From NCBI RefSeq assembly GCF_022026155.1, contig NZ_CP085041.1, forward strand, positions 1,272,306-1,336,305: a stretch of DNA of 64,000 bases, in the 5' to 3' direction. Source of the stretch: Dissulfurimicrobium hydrothermale. Its GTDB lineage: Bacteria > Desulfobacterota > Dissulfuribacteria > Dissulfuribacterales > Sh68. The notes under the pieces were generated by a model that was not told the origin of the DNA, ran no database searches, and saw only the letters and a program-made list of their open reading frames with translations. A program made the position numbers and the translations under genes. This document shows, piece by piece, positions 3,421 through 33,862 of this stretch. Position 1 is the first letter of the stretch. Every line of letters starts with the position of its first letter.

Positions 3421-4266
3421 AGTGCGGCTGCGCCTGAATGAAAACGAGTACGAGACCTCTGCGCCAAAGAGTATCGCCATCCAGCTTATGAGGAGCCATA
3501 GTAGAAAGACAGGTATAGCGCCTATAGATCCATAAAGAATGGAATATATGAAGACCTTTCTGGTGTAGATGCTGTATAATTTCGCCGCAGCGAGCCAAAG
3601 GATGCCGCCGCTCAAGGCCCCGGCAACAGCCGCTTGGGATTCGACTTTCGTGTCAGGTATAAAAAAATAGATGCACCAAAGAAATATCCAGATAGAAAAT
3701 AACGGCGCAAGCCTTAGTAATTTGAATATATGAAGGTATTTTAAGACTAACAGCGCCAGCTCGTGTGATGCGAGAAACGCCCTTGCTATGACGGGCATGG
3801 CGATCAGCATCGGGACAAATGTAAGGGCTGTTAGATATACTATCCCTTTTCGCCAAAAGGGTTTGCGGCTCTTGACCTTCCATATGTGGTTCAATATATC
3901 TTCAAGTTCTATTACAAGCATGACCGCTATAAGAAAGAAGAACAAGAAGCTGAACATACCCAAGGGGGCCTCTTGTGTCTTTTGGATAAGATTTTCTATG
4001 GTCTCGAATACGATTTTTTGGCGGCCTGGTGCAAGTATTTCTGAAAGATATCTGAAGAGTAGTGGTTCAAGATATGTCAGATCGCCGAAGAAAAAATGAA
4101 ATAGCGAGAAGGAAAGGGAAAGGGCCGGGATCAACGTGAAGATGGTTGTATAGGTAAGTGCCTGTGCAGCCATTATACAGCGGTCGTCGATGAATTTTTT
4201 TGATGCCAACTTCAATGTCAGCCAGATATCCTTGGATAGCTGCATCGACATGGCAGTATATCGCAT
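3406..4266 (-). CDS. YihY/BrkB-family inner-membrane protein
   Basis: A 286-residue polytopic membrane protein of the YihY/BrkB family, often mislabelled ribonuclease BN. Visible family features are the early AAQALTYTTIFTLIPALSLS segment, about six hydrophobic helices, and the late GS.GAIPVFLLWLLISWMAILFGAEV segment. The family function is unsettled. The ATG at 4266 is preceded by AAGAGGG nine bases upstream. Start codons five and seven residues further in are possible. It is convergent with recO. Confidence 0.88.
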   Translation of the reverse strand: MRYTAMSMQLSKDIWLTLKLASKKFIDDRCIMAAQALTYTTIFTLIPALSLSFSLFHFFFGDLTYLEPLLFRYLSEILAPGRQKIVFETIENLIQKTQEAPLGMFSFLFFFLIAVMLVIELEDILNHIWKVKSRKPFWRKGIVYLTALTFVPMLIAMPVIARAFLASHELALLVLKYLHIFKLLRLAPLFSIWIFLWCIYFFIPDTKVESQAAVAGALSGGILWLAAAKLYSIYTRKVFIYSILYGSIGAIPVFLLWLLISWMAILFGAEVSYSFSFRRSRTLPAA

Positions 4267-26415: not shown

Positions 26416-27189
26416 ATGATAGAACTTATTGTGCTTGGCTCAGGCACGTGTGTACCTTCCGCTAGGAGGGCCGGGCCGTCGGCTTGCCTCATGGCCAGCG
26501 GACAGACATTCCTGATTGACAGTGCAGCCGGGACGCTCAGGCAGCTGGCCAAGGCCGGTATACCGCACGATGCAATTGACACAGTCCTTTACACCCATTT
26601 TCATCCGGATCATGTGGGCGAGTTCGTCCCGTTTATCTTTGCCATGAAATATGCGCCTGGTTATAAAAGAACGGCCCCTGTCAAGATATTTGCTGCCCGT
26701 GGGTTTGAAAAGTTTTATGCAGCCATGAAAGAGGCCTTTGGGAAATGGGTTGAGCCCAAAGACGGACGTTTGATGGTTGAGGAGCTTCCATGCGAGATGT
26801 CGGCCGCTATTCAGCTGCCGCCCTTTGTCGTACGTTCCGCCCCTGTGGAGCACACCCCCCAGAGCCTTGCATACCGTATCGAGTGTCCTGATGGCAAGGT
26901 TGTTGTCTTTTCGGGCGATACCGATATATGCCATGGTATTGTAGAGCTCGCAAGCGGGGCGGATTTATTGGTGTGTGAATGTGCGGCACCTGAAGGGTTC
27001 AAGGTCGGGGGCCATCTCGTTCCGTCAGAGGCCGGGCGCATCGCCGCGGAAGCCGGTGTAAAGGCGCTCCTCCTTACGCATTTCTATCCTATCTGTGATG
27101 AACATGATATCATGGGTCCATGCAAGGCTGTCTACGACGGCGCCGTGATTCTGGCTGAAGACCTCATGCGTATCGTGATGGACTTTTAG
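26416..27189 (+). CDS. Metallo-beta-lactamase-fold hydrolase (RNase Z-like)
   Basis: A 257-residue MBL-fold protein. The metal motif THFHPDHVGE is near residues 60-69, a third-site GDTD near 165 and a late LLTHFYP near 216. The N-terminal ELIVLGSGTCVPSARRAGPSA resembles tRNase Z-like enzymes. The flexible exosite arm of true RNase Z is not evident, so the substrate is unknown. A good ribosome site (AAGGAG) lies 7 bases before the ATG. It is convergent with otsA. Confidence 0.83.
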   Translation: MIELIVLGSGTCVPSARRAGPSACLMASGQTFLIDSAAGTLRQLAKAGIPHDAIDTVLYTHFHPDHVGEFVPFIFAMKYAPGYKRTAPVKIFAARGFEKFYAAMKEAFGKWVEPKDGRLMVEELPCEMSAAIQLPPFVVRSAPVEHTPQSLAYRIECPDGKVVVFSGDTDICHGIVELASGADLLVCECAAPEGFKVGGHLVPSEAGRIAAEAGVKALLLTHFYPICDEHDIMGPCKAVYDGAVILAEDLMRIVMDF

Positions 27190-27221
27190 TATGGCGGTTG
27201 GGATCGAAGACAGCACTAGGC

Positions 27222-27233
27222 GACCATATGGTC
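27222..27233. other. 12-bp perfect palindrome between convergent genes
   Basis: GACCATATGGTC lies at the convergence of the MBL hydrolase and otsA genes, covering the last bases of otsA. It is too short and has no T-run, so it is at best a weak stem. Confidence 0.3.
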
Positions 27234-28710
27234 ATGGAACCTTAGCTGCCAGGGAAGTGGTTTCCTTGTTTGTAGGTCTGCTTGAAGGGTGTTTGGAAAG
27301 TGCAGTTTCGAGATAATTCTTGACCCACCAGAAGATATCCCTTTTTTTTATTGATGCCCTCAGTTTTTTCATCCTGTCCATCTTTTCTTTTTCATCCATA
27401 TAAAAGGCGCTGTGTATTGCATCCGATACCCCTTCGATATCATATGGGTTAACTATTAATGCCCACTGATGCAATTGGGATGCAGCGCCTGCGAACTCGC
27501 TCAAGATGAGTACGCCGCGGTTTGTATAATTGCAGGCACAATATTCCTTTGCAACCAGATTCATGCCATCCTTGAGCGGTGTTACCAGGGCGATGTCCGC
27601 CAATCTGTAATAGGAAAGGAGCTCGCATCGGTCCAGGTGCCGATACAAATAATGAATAGGGACCCACCCCGCCTTGGTGAATTCGCCATTGATTTCGCCA
27701 ACCATACGTTCTATCCTCGCCTTGAGCAGGCCGTATTCGGGGATATTCTGTCTGCTTGGTACAACTACCTGGACTAGTGTGATCTTTCTATGCAGATCCG
27801 GATATCGCCTGAGGGCGTTGCGCATGGCTTCAAGCCGTTCGGGTATGCCCTTCGTGTAGTCCAGACGATCCACCCCCAGGATCACCTGGCACTCTGGCAT
27901 CGCCTCTTTGAGGTATTGCACCCTTTCTTTGGTCTCGCGGGAGGCAGCATCCCTTGCAAAGGCCCCGAAGTCTATGCTGATGGGGAACGCACCGATCCTG
28001 ACTTCCCTTCCCCCTACCGTCGTTATTGCAATATGGGCTTCCCAATCTATGTCTATATCAGGATAGAGCATGTGTATACAGTTTACAAAATTTCTTCTGT
28101 CTCTGGCGGTCTGAAAACCGATTATGTCATAGTTGAGCAAGGCTTTTAATATCTGACCCCTCCAGGGCAGTTTGATGAATATATCCACAGATGGAAAGGG
28201 GATGTGAAGGAAAAAACCTATTTTTCTTGATGCGTCGGCTTCTTTTAGTTTTTGGGCAGTCAATATCAGATGATAGTCATGGACCCAGACAAAATCATTC
28301 TCATCTGACAAGGCGGCGATCCTATCGGCGAATTTTTTATTTACCTCGATGTATCGGTACCAATATTCAGGTCTGAAATTGCACCTTGTCTGCAGATCGT
28401 GAAAAAGAGGCCAGATGATCTCATTCGAAAAGCCATAATAATAGTCTTTTATTTCATCGGCGGTAAGCGGCACTGTATGGAGATCAAAGCCTGAATCGGC
28501 CGAGGCCGTTTTGATGTGCTCCATAATTTCCTGATCTCCTATGCCCCCTGACCATCCTATCCATATACCTCCCTGATCCTTCAGTACAGGTGCGAGGGCC
28601 GTGACTAACCCGCCGCTCCCTGGCCTGATCTCCCAGCCGGCGGAGGTCTTCTTGATGGAAACCGGCAGGCGGTTGGAGACCACAACGAGTCTTTCCGGAG
28701 TGTTTGCCAT
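27232..28710 (-). CDS. otsA: Alpha,alpha-trehalose-phosphate synthase (GT20)
   Basis: A 492-residue GT20 enzyme that joins NDP-glucose and glucose-6-phosphate to trehalose-6-phosphate. Visible features are the N-terminal VVSNRLPVSI and GSGGLVTAL, WVHDYHLIL near residue 145, GVDRLDYTKGIPERL near 275 and DGMNLVAKEY near 375. The length is normal. Glucosylglycerol-phosphate synthases share this fold, but the adjacent OtsB and TreT-like genes favour trehalose. It is last in a four-gene operon, 6 bases after otsB. Confidence 0.9.
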   Translation of the reverse strand: MANTPERLVVVSNRLPVSIKKTSAGWEIRPGSGGLVTALAPVLKDQGGIWIGWSGGIGDQEIMEHIKTASADSGFDLHTVPLTADEIKDYYYGFSNEIIWPLFHDLQTRCNFRPEYWYRYIEVNKKFADRIAALSDENDFVWVHDYHLILTAQKLKEADASRKIGFFLHIPFPSVDIFIKLPWRGQILKALLNYDIIGFQTARDRRNFVNCIHMLYPDIDIDWEAHIAITTVGGREVRIGAFPISIDFGAFARDAASRETKERVQYLKEAMPECQVILGVDRLDYTKGIPERLEAMRNALRRYPDLHRKITLVQVVVPSRQNIPEYGLLKARIERMVGEINGEFTKAGWVPIHYLYRHLDRCELLSYYRLADIALVTPLKDGMNLVAKEYCACNYTNRGVLILSEFAGAASQLHQWALIVNPYDIEGVSDAIHSAFYMDEKEKMDRMKKLRASIKKRDIFWWVKNYLETALSKHPSSRPTNKETTSLAAKVP

Positions 28711-28716
28711 ATTTTT

Positions 28717-29517
28717 TCACCTCCTGCACATCTCTTCCCAGTACGATAAAAAATCGATCAATTCATCAGGCGGCGAGATCCAGAGATCGGCGGCCGTTTC
28801 CCTATATTTCCGTCTGACTAAAACCCCTAAGCCCTTTTCCTTGATGGCCTTGAATGCGTCTTCGTCGGTGAAATCATCCCCGAGATATGCAACAGCCGCA
28901 TCCATACCGCCTTCTCTCAGAACGGCATTTACAGCCCTGCCCTTATCTGCGCCCCTGGTTCTGAATTCGATTCCTCCGTCGAATAAATGTGTCTCTAAAT
29001 CGTCTTCCCGTTTATTATTCTTGATAAGTTCCAAATACTTGTCTTTTATCTCAAGAATGAGCCTCTTCGCATCATCCTCCTCCATCCCTCTTGTGTGAAA
29101 GGCGAGACAGCCTGGTTTCAGTTCTGTTTGGCTTTTGTATCCTTTTAAAAACAGCCAATTATAAAGATCGGTCACGAGTTGTTCGGTCTGTGGCGGAACG
29201 GGATTCCGCTCATATATTCCGTCTTTGTCCAGTCGTTCCATGGCGTGAGCCCCCCATATTTCAGGGAGCGGATGTATGTCTATGAGCGAGGCTATGTCGC
29301 TTACCGTCCTTCCGGTCACGAGGACTACCCGACATCTTGGAATGTCCATTATCCTTGTTAGTGCATCTTTAACGCCTGAGTACGGCATAGCCTTGTCCCT
29401 TTCCAGCCTGAAAGGTGCAAGGGTCCCGTCGTAATCCAGCATCAGGATGCGGTTGCCGCTCGATGCCAGGCGCCCCCAGAATGAATCGATTGATAGGCCA
29501 TCGTTTAGCAATTTCAT
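28717..29517 (-). CDS. otsB: Trehalose-6-phosphate phosphatase
   Basis: A 266-residue HAD-superfamily phosphatase that removes phosphate from trehalose-6-phosphate. Motif I is MLDYDGTLAPF near residues 26-36, motif II VLVTGRTVSD, and motif IV YLGDDFTDEDAF near 217-228. The start overlaps the end of the TreT-like gene by 4 bases (ATGA), so translation is probably coupled. Confidence 0.9.
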   Translation of the reverse strand: MKLLNDGLSIDSFWGRLASSGNRILMLDYDGTLAPFRLERDKAMPYSGVKDALTRIMDIPRCRVVLVTGRTVSDIASLIDIHPLPEIWGAHAMERLDKDGIYERNPVPPQTEQLVTDLYNWLFLKGYKSQTELKPGCLAFHTRGMEEDDAKRLILEIKDKYLELIKNNKREDDLETHLFDGGIEFRTRGADKGRAVNAVLREGGMDAAVAYLGDDFTDEDAFKAIKEKGLGVLVRRKYRETAADLWISPPDELIDFLSYWEEMCRR

Positions 29518-30755
29518 AACGTCATGTCTATCCTATCGCTAAGTCCGTTCATCAGACTGATCATCAATGTGAGATATTCCCTGACATGGCGGGTGATCAA
29601 AAAATTCTCATATACAAACCGATGAGCCTTTTCGCCCATCCTAGCCATTATGTCTCTATGAGATAGCAGGTAACGTATGCGGAGCGCCGCACCTTCGGGG
29701 GTTTTGACCCTAAAGCCTGTGTAGTGGTCCACTACCTGTAGTTTGATGCCACCGGTGTCTCCGGCCACAACGGGTTTCCCCTTCCACATGGCCTCTGTCA
29801 CAGTGAGGCCGAAGCCTTCTTTCAGGGATTTCTGGATGATGATGTCGGCAGCCCTTTGAATGGCGTTTATGGTCCTGTGTGCATCGGGCGGAAGCAAGAG
29901 GATGTGTATGTTAGGGTCGCCGTTTGCGGCCTCCATCACCTCTTTGAACACTACTTCTCCCTCAGGGTCGTCTGTTGCACCACCCCCAGCCAGCACCAGC
30001 TGACAAGGCGTCATCTTGTGTACCTGTTTAAATGCCTGAATCACCCCAACTGGGTCTTTGAACCGATCGAAACGGGACACCTGAACAAGAAGGGGAAGGT
30101 CTCTTTCGAGTCCAAATCGTTCGAACACGTTTTCAACCTCCTTGTCAGGCAAGGGTATATTCTTGTCGCTGATCGGATCGATGCTTGGCGCGATGATGTA
30201 TTGCGTATGCGGGAGCGGCTGGGCGAATTCGGGCAGCGAAAAGATGCTGGCGTCATAGCCGCCTACCCAGTTTTTCAGATATTTCCAGACCGGGCGGTAA
30301 GGCCTGCTGCAGTCAATGTGGCATCTCCATACCCACTTACCGCGTCTCTCAGGCATGTAATTCAACAGCGCGGCAGGCTGCGGGTCGTGTATTATCACAA
30401 AGTCCGCATCGGAGAGCAAGGGCCTCAATTCCTCGGCGTTTTCTTTATTTACCCTTTCGTATGTCTTGAGGAGCCCTTCTTTGACGCTTATTTTGTAGCC
30501 CTGAAGCGCGTTGTGAAAGCCCTTTGTGCACTGGAAAAAGTCAGCCGTTCCCTTTATTACGGCCCATTTTACATCAAGATCAAGGGCCTCCATCAATGGG
30601 ACCATCTTCCTCAAGATTTCTGCTACACCCCCTCCTTCCTTAGTGGAATTGACATGGACTATCCTTTTTCCTTTTATCTTTTCTGCAATCTGCAGGAGGT
30701 GCCCTATTGCATCGTAGCCTGCGGCCTCTGCATATTGTTTTAATAGATCATTCAT
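29514..30755 (-). CDS. TreT-like trehalose-forming glycosyltransferase (GT4)
   Basis: A 413-residue GT4 glycosyltransferase with VHVNSTKEGGGVAEILRKM near the N-terminus, the VIIHDPQPAALL segment, and the C-terminal KEGFGLTVTEAMWKGKPVVAGDTGGI donor site. This pattern fits trehalose glycosyltransferring synthase (TreT), which makes trehalose directly from NDP-glucose and glucose. Together with OtsA/OtsB the operon would hold two trehalose routes. Another disaccharide product cannot be excluded. It starts 9 bases after the DUF5752 gene. Confidence 0.8.
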   Translation of the reverse strand: MNDLLKQYAEAAGYDAIGHLLQIAEKIKGKRIVHVNSTKEGGGVAEILRKMVPLMEALDLDVKWAVIKGTADFFQCTKGFHNALQGYKISVKEGLLKTYERVNKENAEELRPLLSDADFVIIHDPQPAALLNYMPERRGKWVWRCHIDCSRPYRPVWKYLKNWVGGYDASIFSLPEFAQPLPHTQYIIAPSIDPISDKNIPLPDKEVENVFERFGLERDLPLLVQVSRFDRFKDPVGVIQAFKQVHKMTPCQLVLAGGGATDDPEGEVVFKEVMEAANGDPNIHILLLPPDAHRTINAIQRAADIIIQKSLKEGFGLTVTEAMWKGKPVVAGDTGGIKLQVVDHYTGFRVKTPEGAALRIRYLLSHRDIMARMGEKAHRFVYENFLITRHVREYLTLMISLMNGLSDRIDMTL

Positions 30756-30764
30756 TGTTCGTAG

Positions 30765-31424
30765 TTACCCCAAAAAATATTCTGTGAAGATCCTGCTTAA
30801 TTTTTCTTTTATTTCATTTAATGAACTGAAATATGGATCTATTGACATTATCTTAAGCCTAAGATCGTTATATCCATCGCCCCATGCCATGAGCCAGGCG
30901 CTGAAGTCATCGGATCTGTCCGGCGTCCGTCTCCTAGCATCTATATAGTGATAAAAAATGCTTCCGCGCCCCATTGCAGGTACGGTCTGAACAAGTTCAG
31001 CGGGATGATTTATCATGCGATTGGTATCGAAGATGATTATTTGAGATTGTATGAAATAAAACATGTCGTCCGCCTTTGCCCAGGGCACGTATTCAGATTC
31101 ATCCAGATATTCATCGATGACCTCCAGAAGCTCCTGTCTCAATGCTTCGATATCGGAGTAATCCGTGGGATCTATTACGCTGAGCTTTTCAGCAAGGGCC
31201 TTTACGTGCAATCCCCTGTATATCCAGGCGGCAAAGTCGTTATTATACTCAGGTTCGTCAAAATGTGGCTGCAGGAATCTTCCCCAAAAATGGTTGTATA
31301 TGCTGTTTTTGGGGGCCTTTGAAAGGCAATCCCTTAGCTCTCTGAGATTCTGTGCCTTATAACCAGTAGAGATACCCACGAGCGCGCAATCCATGATCCT
31401 GAAGGGTTCATTTTTTGTTGGCAT
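30765..31424 (-). CDS. DUF5752 family protein, first gene of the trehalose operon
   Basis: A 219-residue soluble protein that I assign to DUF5752 from its two similar halves. The first carries NSIYNHFWGRFLQPHF..NDFAAWIYRGL and the second GSIFYHYIDARRR..DDFSAWLMAWGD. Each half therefore has a YxH/HY motif followed by DFxAW, suggesting an internal duplication. No catalytic motif is recognised. It leads the operon with TreT-like, otsB and otsA, and a trehalose-linked regulatory or accessory role is inferred. The ATG follows GAGGGG. Confidence 0.7.
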   Translation of the reverse strand: MPTKNEPFRIMDCALVGISTGYKAQNLRELRDCLSKAPKNSIYNHFWGRFLQPHFDEPEYNNDFAAWIYRGLHVKALAEKLSVIDPTDYSDIEALRQELLEVIDEYLDESEYVPWAKADDMFYFIQSQIIIFDTNRMINHPAELVQTVPAMGRGSIFYHYIDARRRTPDRSDDFSAWLMAWGDGYNDLRLKIMSIDPYFSSLNEIKEKLSRIFTEYFLG

Positions 31425-31652
31425 AAATCCCCCTCTGTCTACACATTTTTATATCATCATTACGTCTAAGCAATATTGCTTCCAAATACTTAATAATGTA
31501 GCGATGTGTCAATTAGCTTCATCGTCCAAAAATATTTATCATTTTTGTCTAGCTAGTATCCATATCCTTTCCTTATGAGATATTTGATTTATTCCAATTG
31601 ACTTATGTGGTTTTAGTGGGAACCAAAGTTACGGTATAATATCAATATAAAG
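31425..31652. other. AT-rich gap upstream of the trehalose operon
   Basis: About 230 AT-rich bases with no credible gene. A TATAAT (31633-31638) faces the IS3 relic. No clear promoter for the trehalose operon could be picked out. Confidence 0.4.
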
Positions 31653-32110
31653 GTGTCAACATGGATGGGATTCCGCAGCGGTTTGTACGAAGTTTCGAGA
31701 GAAGCGGTTAAGCTCATAACAGAGGGTGGGTTGAGCATATCTGAGGCAGGTCGCAGGTTATTAGTATCCTCTTCGACAATTGGATATTGGGTCGCCGAGA
31801 ACCTGCTCAATCGGCAATTCAAGGCTAGGGCCCCGAACCAGATATGGCTTACAGATATTACAGAAGGCTGGCTTTATCTTGCAGGTCACAAGGACTTCTT
31901 TCGGAGAGATTGTGGGATATGCCATGGGTCCACGGAAATACCGTAAACTGCTCAATCAATTATTAGATTATGAAGGTATCGATGAGTGAAAAGGGCGATT
32001 GTTATGATAACGTCCCTATGAAGAGTTTCTGGGGTACCCTTAAAAACGAGCTTGTCCATCATTGTCAATTTGCAACTAGGAGGGAGACATGGACTGAAGA
32101 ATTAATATCT
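31653..32110 (+). pseudogene. IS3-family transposase remnant
   Basis: Fragments of both IS3 proteins run together. The orfA piece is SREAVKLITEGGLSISEAGRR. It runs into orfB pieces QIWLTDIT and EGWLYLAGHKDFF, then (shifted frame) EIVGYAMGP and RKYRKLLNQ, and finally GDCYDNVPMKSFWGTLKNE with the last catalytic acid. The middle of orfB, including the second Asp region, is missing. The element is dead and abuts the 3' end of the DUF342 gene on the other strand. Confidence 0.8.
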
Positions 32111-32140
32111 TTAAGCATCATTACAACTTTTAGAAGTTTT

Positions 32141-33862
32141 TTAAGACATATCTTTTGATGATATCAATCCTTTGTCAGGCACATAGAATAAAGAAATGTC
32201 AATCTGCTCTTTAGCTATCTGTGGCCTGCATCCGAATTTTAGTTCTTGATCGTCGCATTTGATTATAATGAGACCAGATGTAAATATATTACCTTTTATA
32301 TCAGCCTTGATATTTTTTAATCTATTTGAGATATCTTTTTTTTGATTAGTGATAGTTTGAAATTCAGTCTGTGCTGTATTATAGCCATCCAATAGAGGAA
32401 TTAGTTGCATAGTTTTTTTGGTAATGTTATAAAATTGATGTCCATATATTTTAATCCAATTTTTAACTTCTTCAGTTACCTTAAATGGAGAATTATAACC
32501 TTTAACCATTCCTATTAAAATATCTAATAGTGAAATAAGTATTTTTTTTTGTTGTTTGTCTGTTTCTGTAATCATCAGTTTGATTTTTTCAATCAGTATA
32601 ATTATCATTTCACGTATATCTTTTATTATATTTTCCAGTAAAGCTAAAATTTTCGATGCTTTTTCATTTAATTCTCTCAGTTCATTAAAAATAGTCTTTC
32701 CTAGATTTATTTCTACTATATTTCTTATACTTACACCATTCATCTCAATTTTTTCTGCTATAATTTGTAGATATGCACATAGAATTTCTGTTTTGTCTTC
32801 TTTTTGTAATATTAGATGTCTTGTAGTAATTTTGGAATGTACAATTTCTTTTGTAATTTTAATCATTTTTTCTGCTTGCAAGATTGCATTTGAAACTATT
32901 GCTATATCTATTAAGTTTCCTGCCTTTGCTTCAGTTTTAGCAAAATTTGCCTTTATTATTTTAGATGCTTCTATTTTTTTGCACTCTATTGCTCCATCAA
33001 CTGTTAAATTGCCATTTACAAAAATTGAAATTGGACCGCGAATGTCTCCTTGGACAAACATGTCAGCCATTGATGTTATTTCGTCTGGATAATCTACTAT
33101 ATTGGCTGGCGTTAGATTGAGCGGTAGGATTTTTATGTGATTGAGTATTGATATCTTGGTTAGGTTCTGAGGTCTTCTTAATTTGTCTTTAAATTCAGCA
33201 AATATAATGCCATGATTCAGTGAATATACTGCTGTACATGAACGGTCTTTATCTTGGGATGCACAGGTTTTTTCGACGATACCTTCACCTAATTCCAGCA
33301 TAAACGGTTTGCCTGGTTTCGGCAGTATAGGAGTGCCGAAGACGTCCAGGCCTGGCGATCCAGCGGTTGGTCCATAGATATTGAGAAGCAGTTCATTTCC
33401 TTTTGTCTGTGGTAGATATTGAAGATCTTTTAAATCAAATGCGCTGTCTCCTTTAAAAGATACGGCATTTGGCATGAAACTATAGTCAAAATAGATAGCC
33501 GCCTCCCCATCCTCTCCGTTTGAAGGCGGCTCGCCAGTGATGGTCAGATTTCTTGCCGTCACCACGCAATTTACATTTATCGTTCTGAAGCGCGGCAGGC
33601 CTTTTATTATGGTATCGACCTGGAAGACGAATTTTTCTTGGGCGCCTGACCTTATTTTTTCATATATTTCCCCTGGCATGTCTATGTTGAATCTCTTCAA
33701 CACGATCCTGATCGCTTCTGCCAATATGGCTTCATCGAACATGCCGACCGGTGGAAGGGTCATAAACGAGGCCTGGATGCTTTCATCAACAAATACCTCA
33801 AGCATGGTATCTGAGATGGCGTCTGCAAGGTATGCCGGAGATTTGAGCAAGTCGTCTTTCAT
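32141..33862 (-). CDS. FapA/DUF342 family polymer-forming-like protein
   Basis: A 573-residue protein with the DUF342 (FapA) core at about residues 150-360: PTAGSPGLDVFGTPILPKPGKP, then a right-handed beta-helix stretch (DMFVQGDIRGPISIFVNGNLTVDGAIECKKI...). A long helical, Ile/Lys-rich C-terminal part (about 400-530) is probably coiled coil. The family is of uncertain function; members affect flagella or surface assembly in some bacteria. The ATG at 33862 overlaps the upstream radical SAM stop (ATGA). Bases 32160-33260 are strikingly more AT-rich than the 5' part and the neighbours. Confidence 0.8.
   Translation of the reverse strand: MKDDLLKSPAYLADAISDTMLEVFVDESIQASFMTLPPVGMFDEAILAEAIRIVLKRFNIDMPGEIYEKIRSGAQEKFVFQVDTIIKGLPRFRTINVNCVVTARNLTITGEPPSNGEDGEAAIYFDYSFMPNAVSFKGDSAFDLKDLQYLPQTKGNELLLNIYGPTAGSPGLDVFGTPILPKPGKPFMLELGEGIVEKTCASQDKDRSCTAVYSLNHGIIFAEFKDKLRRPQNLTKISILNHIKILPLNLTPANIVDYPDEITSMADMFVQGDIRGPISIFVNGNLTVDGAIECKKIEASKIIKANFAKTEAKAGNLIDIAIVSNAILQAEKMIKITKEIVHSKITTRHLILQKEDKTEILCAYLQIIAEKIEMNGVSIRNIVEINLGKTIFNELRELNEKASKILALLENIIKDIREMIIILIEKIKLMITETDKQQKKILISLLDILIGMVKGYNSPFKVTEEVKNWIKIYGHQFYNITKKTMQLIPLLDGYNTAQTEFQTITNQKKDISNRLKNIKADIKGNIFTSGLIIIKCDDQELKFGCRPQIAKEQIDISLFYVPDKGLISSKDMS

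Follow-up and report, generated by a model that had tools for sequence, protein, structure and literature searches.

Closest described systems

One of the closest described systems to the one considered here is the msc-gt-tpsp operon of Thermoproteus tenax, in which a GT4 protein activates the trehalose-6-phosphate synthase (TPS) half of the fused protein TPSP through complex formation, as set out in the part of PMC3634074 drawn on here. The glycosyltransferase (GT) of that operon is described there as PimA-like, and the sections of the paper covered contain no DUF5752. The same sections refer to the otsBA osmoregulatory operon of E. coli (reference 15 of PMC3634074). Solved structures are available for two TreT enzymes, 6zj4 from T. 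uzoniensis and 2x6q from P. horikoshii, and for OrfY of T. tenax (4cso). The present analysis concerns a trehalose operon of Dissulfurimicrobium hydrothermale that lies within a stretch of 64,000 nucleotides of NZ_CP085041.1 (the window, whose positions are used below), and in particular its first gene, which encodes a protein of the DUF5752 family. On the minus strand this gene is followed by genes for TreT, OtsB and OtsA, with gaps of 9, -4 and 6 nucleotides between the open reading frames (ORFs). This layout had been described in an initial annotation of the DNA, and both the ORFs and Pfam bear it out.

The order of OtsB and then OtsA is that of E. coli otsBA, but the E. coli genome, which was used as a control, has no match to DUF5752 or TreT. 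The window TreT carries the same N- and C-terminal motifs as the two solved enzymes and differs from them in being encoded with OtsB and OtsA, while DUF5752 agrees with T. tenax OrfY in family sequence and whole-protein fold at only ~26% identity. Compared with the T. tenax complex, the window has TreT in place of the PimA-like GT, separate OtsA and OtsB in place of fused TPSP, and no MscS in the operon, so that it does not fall within that type. By analogy, msc-gt-tpsp is best regarded as a precedent in kind and as a different system. Both trehalose routes (TreT and OtsA/OtsB) look intact in the window, with activity judged from family membership. As a trehalose operon it is of an ordinary kind, though the combination of genes is uncommon; the noteworthy part is the unit formed by DUF5752 and TreT, together with the channel fusion found elsewhere.

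Pairing of DUF5752 with TreT

One set of 297 genomes from the window organism's phylum (Desulfobacterota) was searched for three families, and the searches placed DUF5752 in 111 genomes, TreT_GT1 in 120 and GT20 in 125. Matches to DUF5752 longer than 400 base pairs were taken as substantial, which drops 7 of 119 places and leaves 112 places in 106 genomes. TreT is present in 105 of these 106 genomes (Fisher p 1.6e-62 over the 297 genomes) and lies directly downstream on the same strand at 110 of the 112 places, with adjacency counted from hidden Markov model match positions and not from ORF calls. Six genomes have two DUF5752 places each, all of them in adjacent pairs with TreT. The converse is weaker, as 35 of 147 TreT places are without DUF5752 within 3 kb. 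The distance from the DUF5752 stop to the TreT start has a median of -4 nucleotides in 60 measured loci, with 51 of the 60 between -20 and +30, and such near-touching genes suggest translational coupling. Among 14 control genomes, S. acidocaldarius has matches to both DUF5752 and TreT, T. maritima matches TreT alone, and the others match neither. A treT deletion already exists for S. acidocaldarius MW001 (PMC7688234). The initial annotation had proposed asking whether DUF5752 follows TreT-like genes; these counts answer that it does, and DUF5752 is not found mostly away from trehalose genes.

The place of OtsA at these loci is variable. Of the 106 genomes whose DUF5752 match is substantial, 81 have a listed GT20/OtsA and 25 do not, the latter including the single-contig genomes G195 and G214. 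Within 8 kb of the 110 DUF5752-TreT pairs, OtsA is downstream at 35, upstream on the same strand at 28 and on the other strand at 6, and is not near at 41; it may also be fused to OtsB. Only the order of DUF5752 and TreT is nearly constant, and the leading place of DUF5752 that the initial annotation stressed is not general. In two loci a divergent GT20 of 579 residues replaces the normal OtsA beside DUF5752-TreT (L093:3257-4996 (-) and L048:8757-10496 (+)), and the L093 protein scores just 189 bits against TIGR02400.

The phylogeny of TreT follows the same division. A tree was built from 83 rows, of which 81, a subset of the 147 TreT places, come from the window and fetched loci and two are the solved enzymes. 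Its 65 DUF5752-linked and 16 unlinked rows require one change of association, although some branches are long, two of the deep nodes have supports of 89 and 90, and the exact root is unsure. The T. uzoniensis TreT falls on the DUF5752-linked side and that of P. horikoshii on the other, and the window TreT groups with 6zj4 in the linked part. The genome of locus L109 has two TreT genes, one from the linked clade and one from outside it, and DUF5752 adjoins only the former. Distance matrices over 46 loci give a correlation of 0.92 between DUF5752 and TreT and of 0.68 between DUF5752 and OtsA, and the DUF5752-TreT partial correlation given OtsA is 0.86. The pair is one evolving unit, which by itself does not imply physical contact. 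Because of the pairing, the 25 genomes without listed OtsA, the closer TreT distances and the one-change tree, DUF5752 belongs with TreT and not with a choice between routes, and the pairing is well supported.

A separate group of TreT proteins is about 1,330 residues long, with the last ~400 residues corresponding to TreT (L059:3283-7269 (+); a 1335-residue ORF in L097; L098:294-4238 (-)). The TreT part is confirmed by Pfam in L059 and L098, and the first part, which has no Pfam match, resembles by eye a glucosyl-3-phosphoglycerate-synthase-like glycosyltransferase. These proteins have no DUF5752 neighbour of their own.

Structure and family of DUF5752

The window DUF5752 protein matches PF19027 over the whole length of the model (272 bits, cut-off 23; residues 6-213 on model positions 2-207 of 208). 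The initial annotation had noted two similar halves, and this is confirmed by an alignment score of 78 between them (shuffle mean 28.7, maximum 53 in 500 shuffles) and by hhalign of the profile halves (probability 99.7, E 4.4e-27). Judged by sequence, the protein is a true tandem duplication with homologous halves. The shared motif residues are H45 and H159, with NDFAxW at 62-67 and DDFSxW at 172-177. An AlphaFold2 (AF2) model from 70 sequences has a mean predicted local distance difference test score (pLDDT) of 94.7 and a predicted template modelling score (pTM) of 0.87, and in each half a long strand leads into helices. Every one of the 70 members is acidic, with isoelectric points of 4.6-6.8.

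By sequence, 4cso is the sole match among PDB entries (phmmer E 7e-24), and the model resembles the same entry in Foldseek (E 1e-12, TM 0.83) and in VIA (Z 21.9, 208 residues at 2.6 A), where the next entry has a Z of 4.6. No other structural relative stood above background in these two fold searches of solved structures, a result that does not imply a unique fold. The entry is titled "The structure of OrfY from Thermoproteus tenax" and its molecule is named "OrfY protein, transcription factor". From the combined sequence and fold match, DUF5752 belongs to the OrfY family. The earlier statement that DUF5752 has no known role holds for function, but the family does have a solved structure. A full-text literature search found no open paper on DUF5752 or T. 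tenax OrfY, and tblastn found no match to DUF5752 in plasmids and phages.

When both half-modules were searched against 198 genomes, the matches outside DUF5752 were just three weak ones, in G145, G105 and G092 (E 1.6e-5 to 8.6e-5), and the G105 match has a response-regulator domain on one side and PPDK_N on the other. A single half-module, distantly similar to DUF5752 (YYHAQRNDFSTWL in L095), precedes a PPDK_N domain at L095:4006-8304 (+), where it comes after a response-regulator domain, and in L094 near 3975-4196. In genome G017 the DUF5752 frame (L087:7294-7959, (-)) is broken by one in-frame TAA, which may mark a pseudogene or a sequencing error.

Association with mechanosensitive channel genes

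The recurrent neighbours of DUF5752 besides OtsA and OtsB are MscS, TreZ and TreY, and occasional neighbours are glucosyl-3-phosphoglycerate synthase-like and mannosyl-3-phosphoglycerate phosphatase genes. All of these have to do with osmolyte metabolism or osmotic release. Of the 147 MscS beta-domain places listed in 60 genomes, 11 are no more than 5 kb from a DUF5752 gene, where 0.57 would be expected; 10 of the 11 share its strand, and eight families are involved. The Poisson value of 3e-11 overstates this excess, since related genomes are not independent. At L071 and L088 mscS abuts or overlaps the DUF5752 gene. At L064 and L144 a single ORF of 468-470 residues combines the N-terminal part and beta domain of MscS with a whole DUF5752, in the gene order otsA, otsB, mscS-DUF5752, treT. 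A third fusion, at L145, stands directly before treT in a locus cut by the contig end. The fused DUF5752 follows the channel beta domain at the position of the MscS C-terminal domain, and at L064 the fusion is the only listed MscS place in the genome. Like the T. tenax operon, L064 and L144 bring together a GT4, a TPS and trehalose-6-phosphate phosphatase pair and a mechanosensitive channel; the L145 locus, as far as its contig runs, resembles it in having MscS-DUF5752 and TreT.

Proposed role of DUF5752

We lean modestly towards DUF5752/OrfY serving a single TreT clade as its dedicated partner at the protein level and linking trehalose synthesis to osmotic state. TreT would form trehalose from NDP-glucose (NDP, nucleoside diphosphate) and glucose, and OtsA/OtsB would form it from NDP-glucose and glucose-6-phosphate with subsequent dephosphorylation. 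DUF5752 may bind to TreT itself or to a site that both proteins share, and once bound would set the activity or location of TreT by osmotic state, with turgor as the putative signal. In one lineage the partner would be joined to the tension sensor itself as the MscS fusion. The operon of the window organism has no channel gene, and the sole PF00924 match in its genome is ~280 kb away; any coupling there would therefore need to run through soluble DUF5752. If one main TreT clade always travels with a partner, activities recorded for the enzyme alone may miss regulation. The proposal also assigns DUF5752, an uncharacterised family with a solved structure, a specific role that is open to testing, and the channel fusion would offer a direct molecular route from osmotic tension to osmolyte synthesis that can be tested with purified proteins.

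Several observations weigh against this proposal. In G222, a real exception to the adjacency, DUF5752 stands beside TreY and a GlgC-like gene (GlgC by eye) and TreT is elsewhere in the genome; a second non-adjacent place, in G006, is at a contig end. The majority of DUF5752 loci are without MscS nearby, and the MscS-DUF5752 fusion is limited here to three genomes of one family (f59). The depositors of 4cso named OrfY a transcription factor. Furthermore, an AF2 model of DUF5752 and TreT in tandem, with the intervening stop read as Q, reached a pTM of 0.69 with a linker pLDDT below 50 and gave no confident DUF5752-TreT interface, although with 8 of 32 rows paired it is a weak test either way.

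A more specific form of the proposal, which we put forward only tentatively, is that DUF5752/OrfY is a turgor-coupling subunit that links TreT to mechanosensitive channels, such that one system would sense membrane tension and control both the making and the release of osmolyte. The MscS-DUF5752 fusions would then be the joined form, with soluble DUF5752 providing the same coupling in most genomes.

The role named in the 4cso entry, that of a DNA-binding transcription factor of its own operon, appears unlikely. Such a role is consistent with the often promoter-proximal position of DUF5752, as 26 examined loci have no close same-strand gene in front of it. However, the protein is acidic throughout the family, the fold searches turned up nothing clearly DNA-binding other than 4cso itself (weak evidence), and no common dyad stood out in the 250 nucleotides upstream of 26 operons. 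In addition, DUF5752 forms the C-terminus of a membrane channel in three genomes, and OtsA precedes it in the 28 pairs noted above. These tests on sequence weigh mildly against a transcription factor.

DUF5752 might instead be an enzyme or a chaperone-like assembly factor that matures or stabilises TreT, with no part in sensing. The close gene coupling and near-obligate pairing would be expected of such a factor as well, and H and D residues are conserved in both halves. A chaperone role hardly explains the channel fusion, though, and the linked-side TreT of T. uzoniensis was solved under the enzyme's name, which suggests that this TreT can be produced alone; we consider this explanation improbable.

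Least probable is the proposal of the initial annotation, a choice by DUF5752 of the TreT or the OtsAB route, which could for instance work through a joint complex that retains TreT or OtsA: OtsA is within 8 kb at 69 of the 110 pairs and T. tenax TPSP requires its GT4 partner for TPS activity (in the sections of PMC3634074 covered), but 25 of the 106 genomes have no listed GT20, the DUF5752 distance matrix tracks TreT far more than OtsA, and the OtsA arrangement varies. Route selection was dropped as the lead reading on account of those 25 genomes.

Gene identities and features of the locus

The positions of the operon genes and of the two DUF5752 half-modules are collected in Table 1.

Table 1. 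Features of the D. hydrothermale trehalose operon and the basis of each assignment
Feature	Position	Strand	Basis
DUF5752/OrfY-family protein, first operon gene	30765..31424	-	219 residues; PF19027 272 bits; 4cso fold; AF2 pLDDT 94.7
DUF5752 first half-module	31101..31403	-	long strand and five helices, H45, NDFAxW
DUF5752 second half-module	30774..31061	-	H159, DDFSxW; hhalign of halves
TreT, trehalose glycosyltransferring synthase (GT4, EC 2.4.1.245), of the clade associated with DUF5752	29514..30755	-	413 residues; PF21269 194 bits; identity to solved TreT; tree
OtsB, trehalose-6-phosphate phosphatase (HAD)	28717..29517	-	266 residues; PF02358 and TIGR00685 over cut-off
OtsA, trehalose-6-phosphate synthase (GT20)	27232..28710	-	492 residues; PF00982 501.5 bits; TIGR02400 slightly below cut-off
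Intergenic stretch upstream of operon, presumed promoter site	31425..32140	-	

The TreT assignment rests on PF21269 TreT_GT1 (194 bits, cut-off 27) and on PF00534, the GT4 C-terminal domain (89.7 bits), together with full-length matches to 6zj4 (2.7e-128; 49.9% identity over the aligned parts) and 2x6q (5e-110; 45.4%). In a three-way alignment the window protein keeps the motifs of both solved enzymes (HVNST-GGGVAEIL, HDPQPA, WRCHID, PSIDP and EGFGLTV-E). With these motifs kept and with this identity to T. uzoniensis TreT, the alternative that the TreT-like enzyme makes a different disaccharide, which had been raised initially, seems unlikely. The score against NCBIfam NF041139 TreT_Thcocales is 400.8 bits against a cut-off of 775; this model is Thermococcales-specific by name, and the shortfall would exclude that subgroup only.

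OtsB passes both the Pfam model PF02358 Trehalose_PPase (62.1 bits, cut-off 27) and the NCBIfam trehalose-phosphatase equivalog TIGR00685 (79.5 against 68.05). OtsA is far over the cut-off for PF00982 Glyco_transf_20 (501.5 bits against 32.5) and narrowly below that of the NCBIfam OtsA equivalog TIGR02400 (556.8 against 564.85), and it scores just 346.1 with TIGR02398, the model for glucosylglycerol-phosphate synthase.

A promoter scan of 26900-32300 gave 5 sites against 8.7 in shuffles, none of them within the intergenic stretch upstream of the operon, and Rfam gave no match anywhere in the window. A gene for a FapA-like protein (PF20250, PF03961; 32141-33913 (-)) lies on the operon's strand, about 700 base pairs upstream. 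A gene for a metallo-beta-lactamase-fold protein (26416-27189 (+)) faces the end of the operon, and its product has similarity to RNase Z and to cyclic-nucleotide phosphodiesterase, both at scores below the cut-offs.

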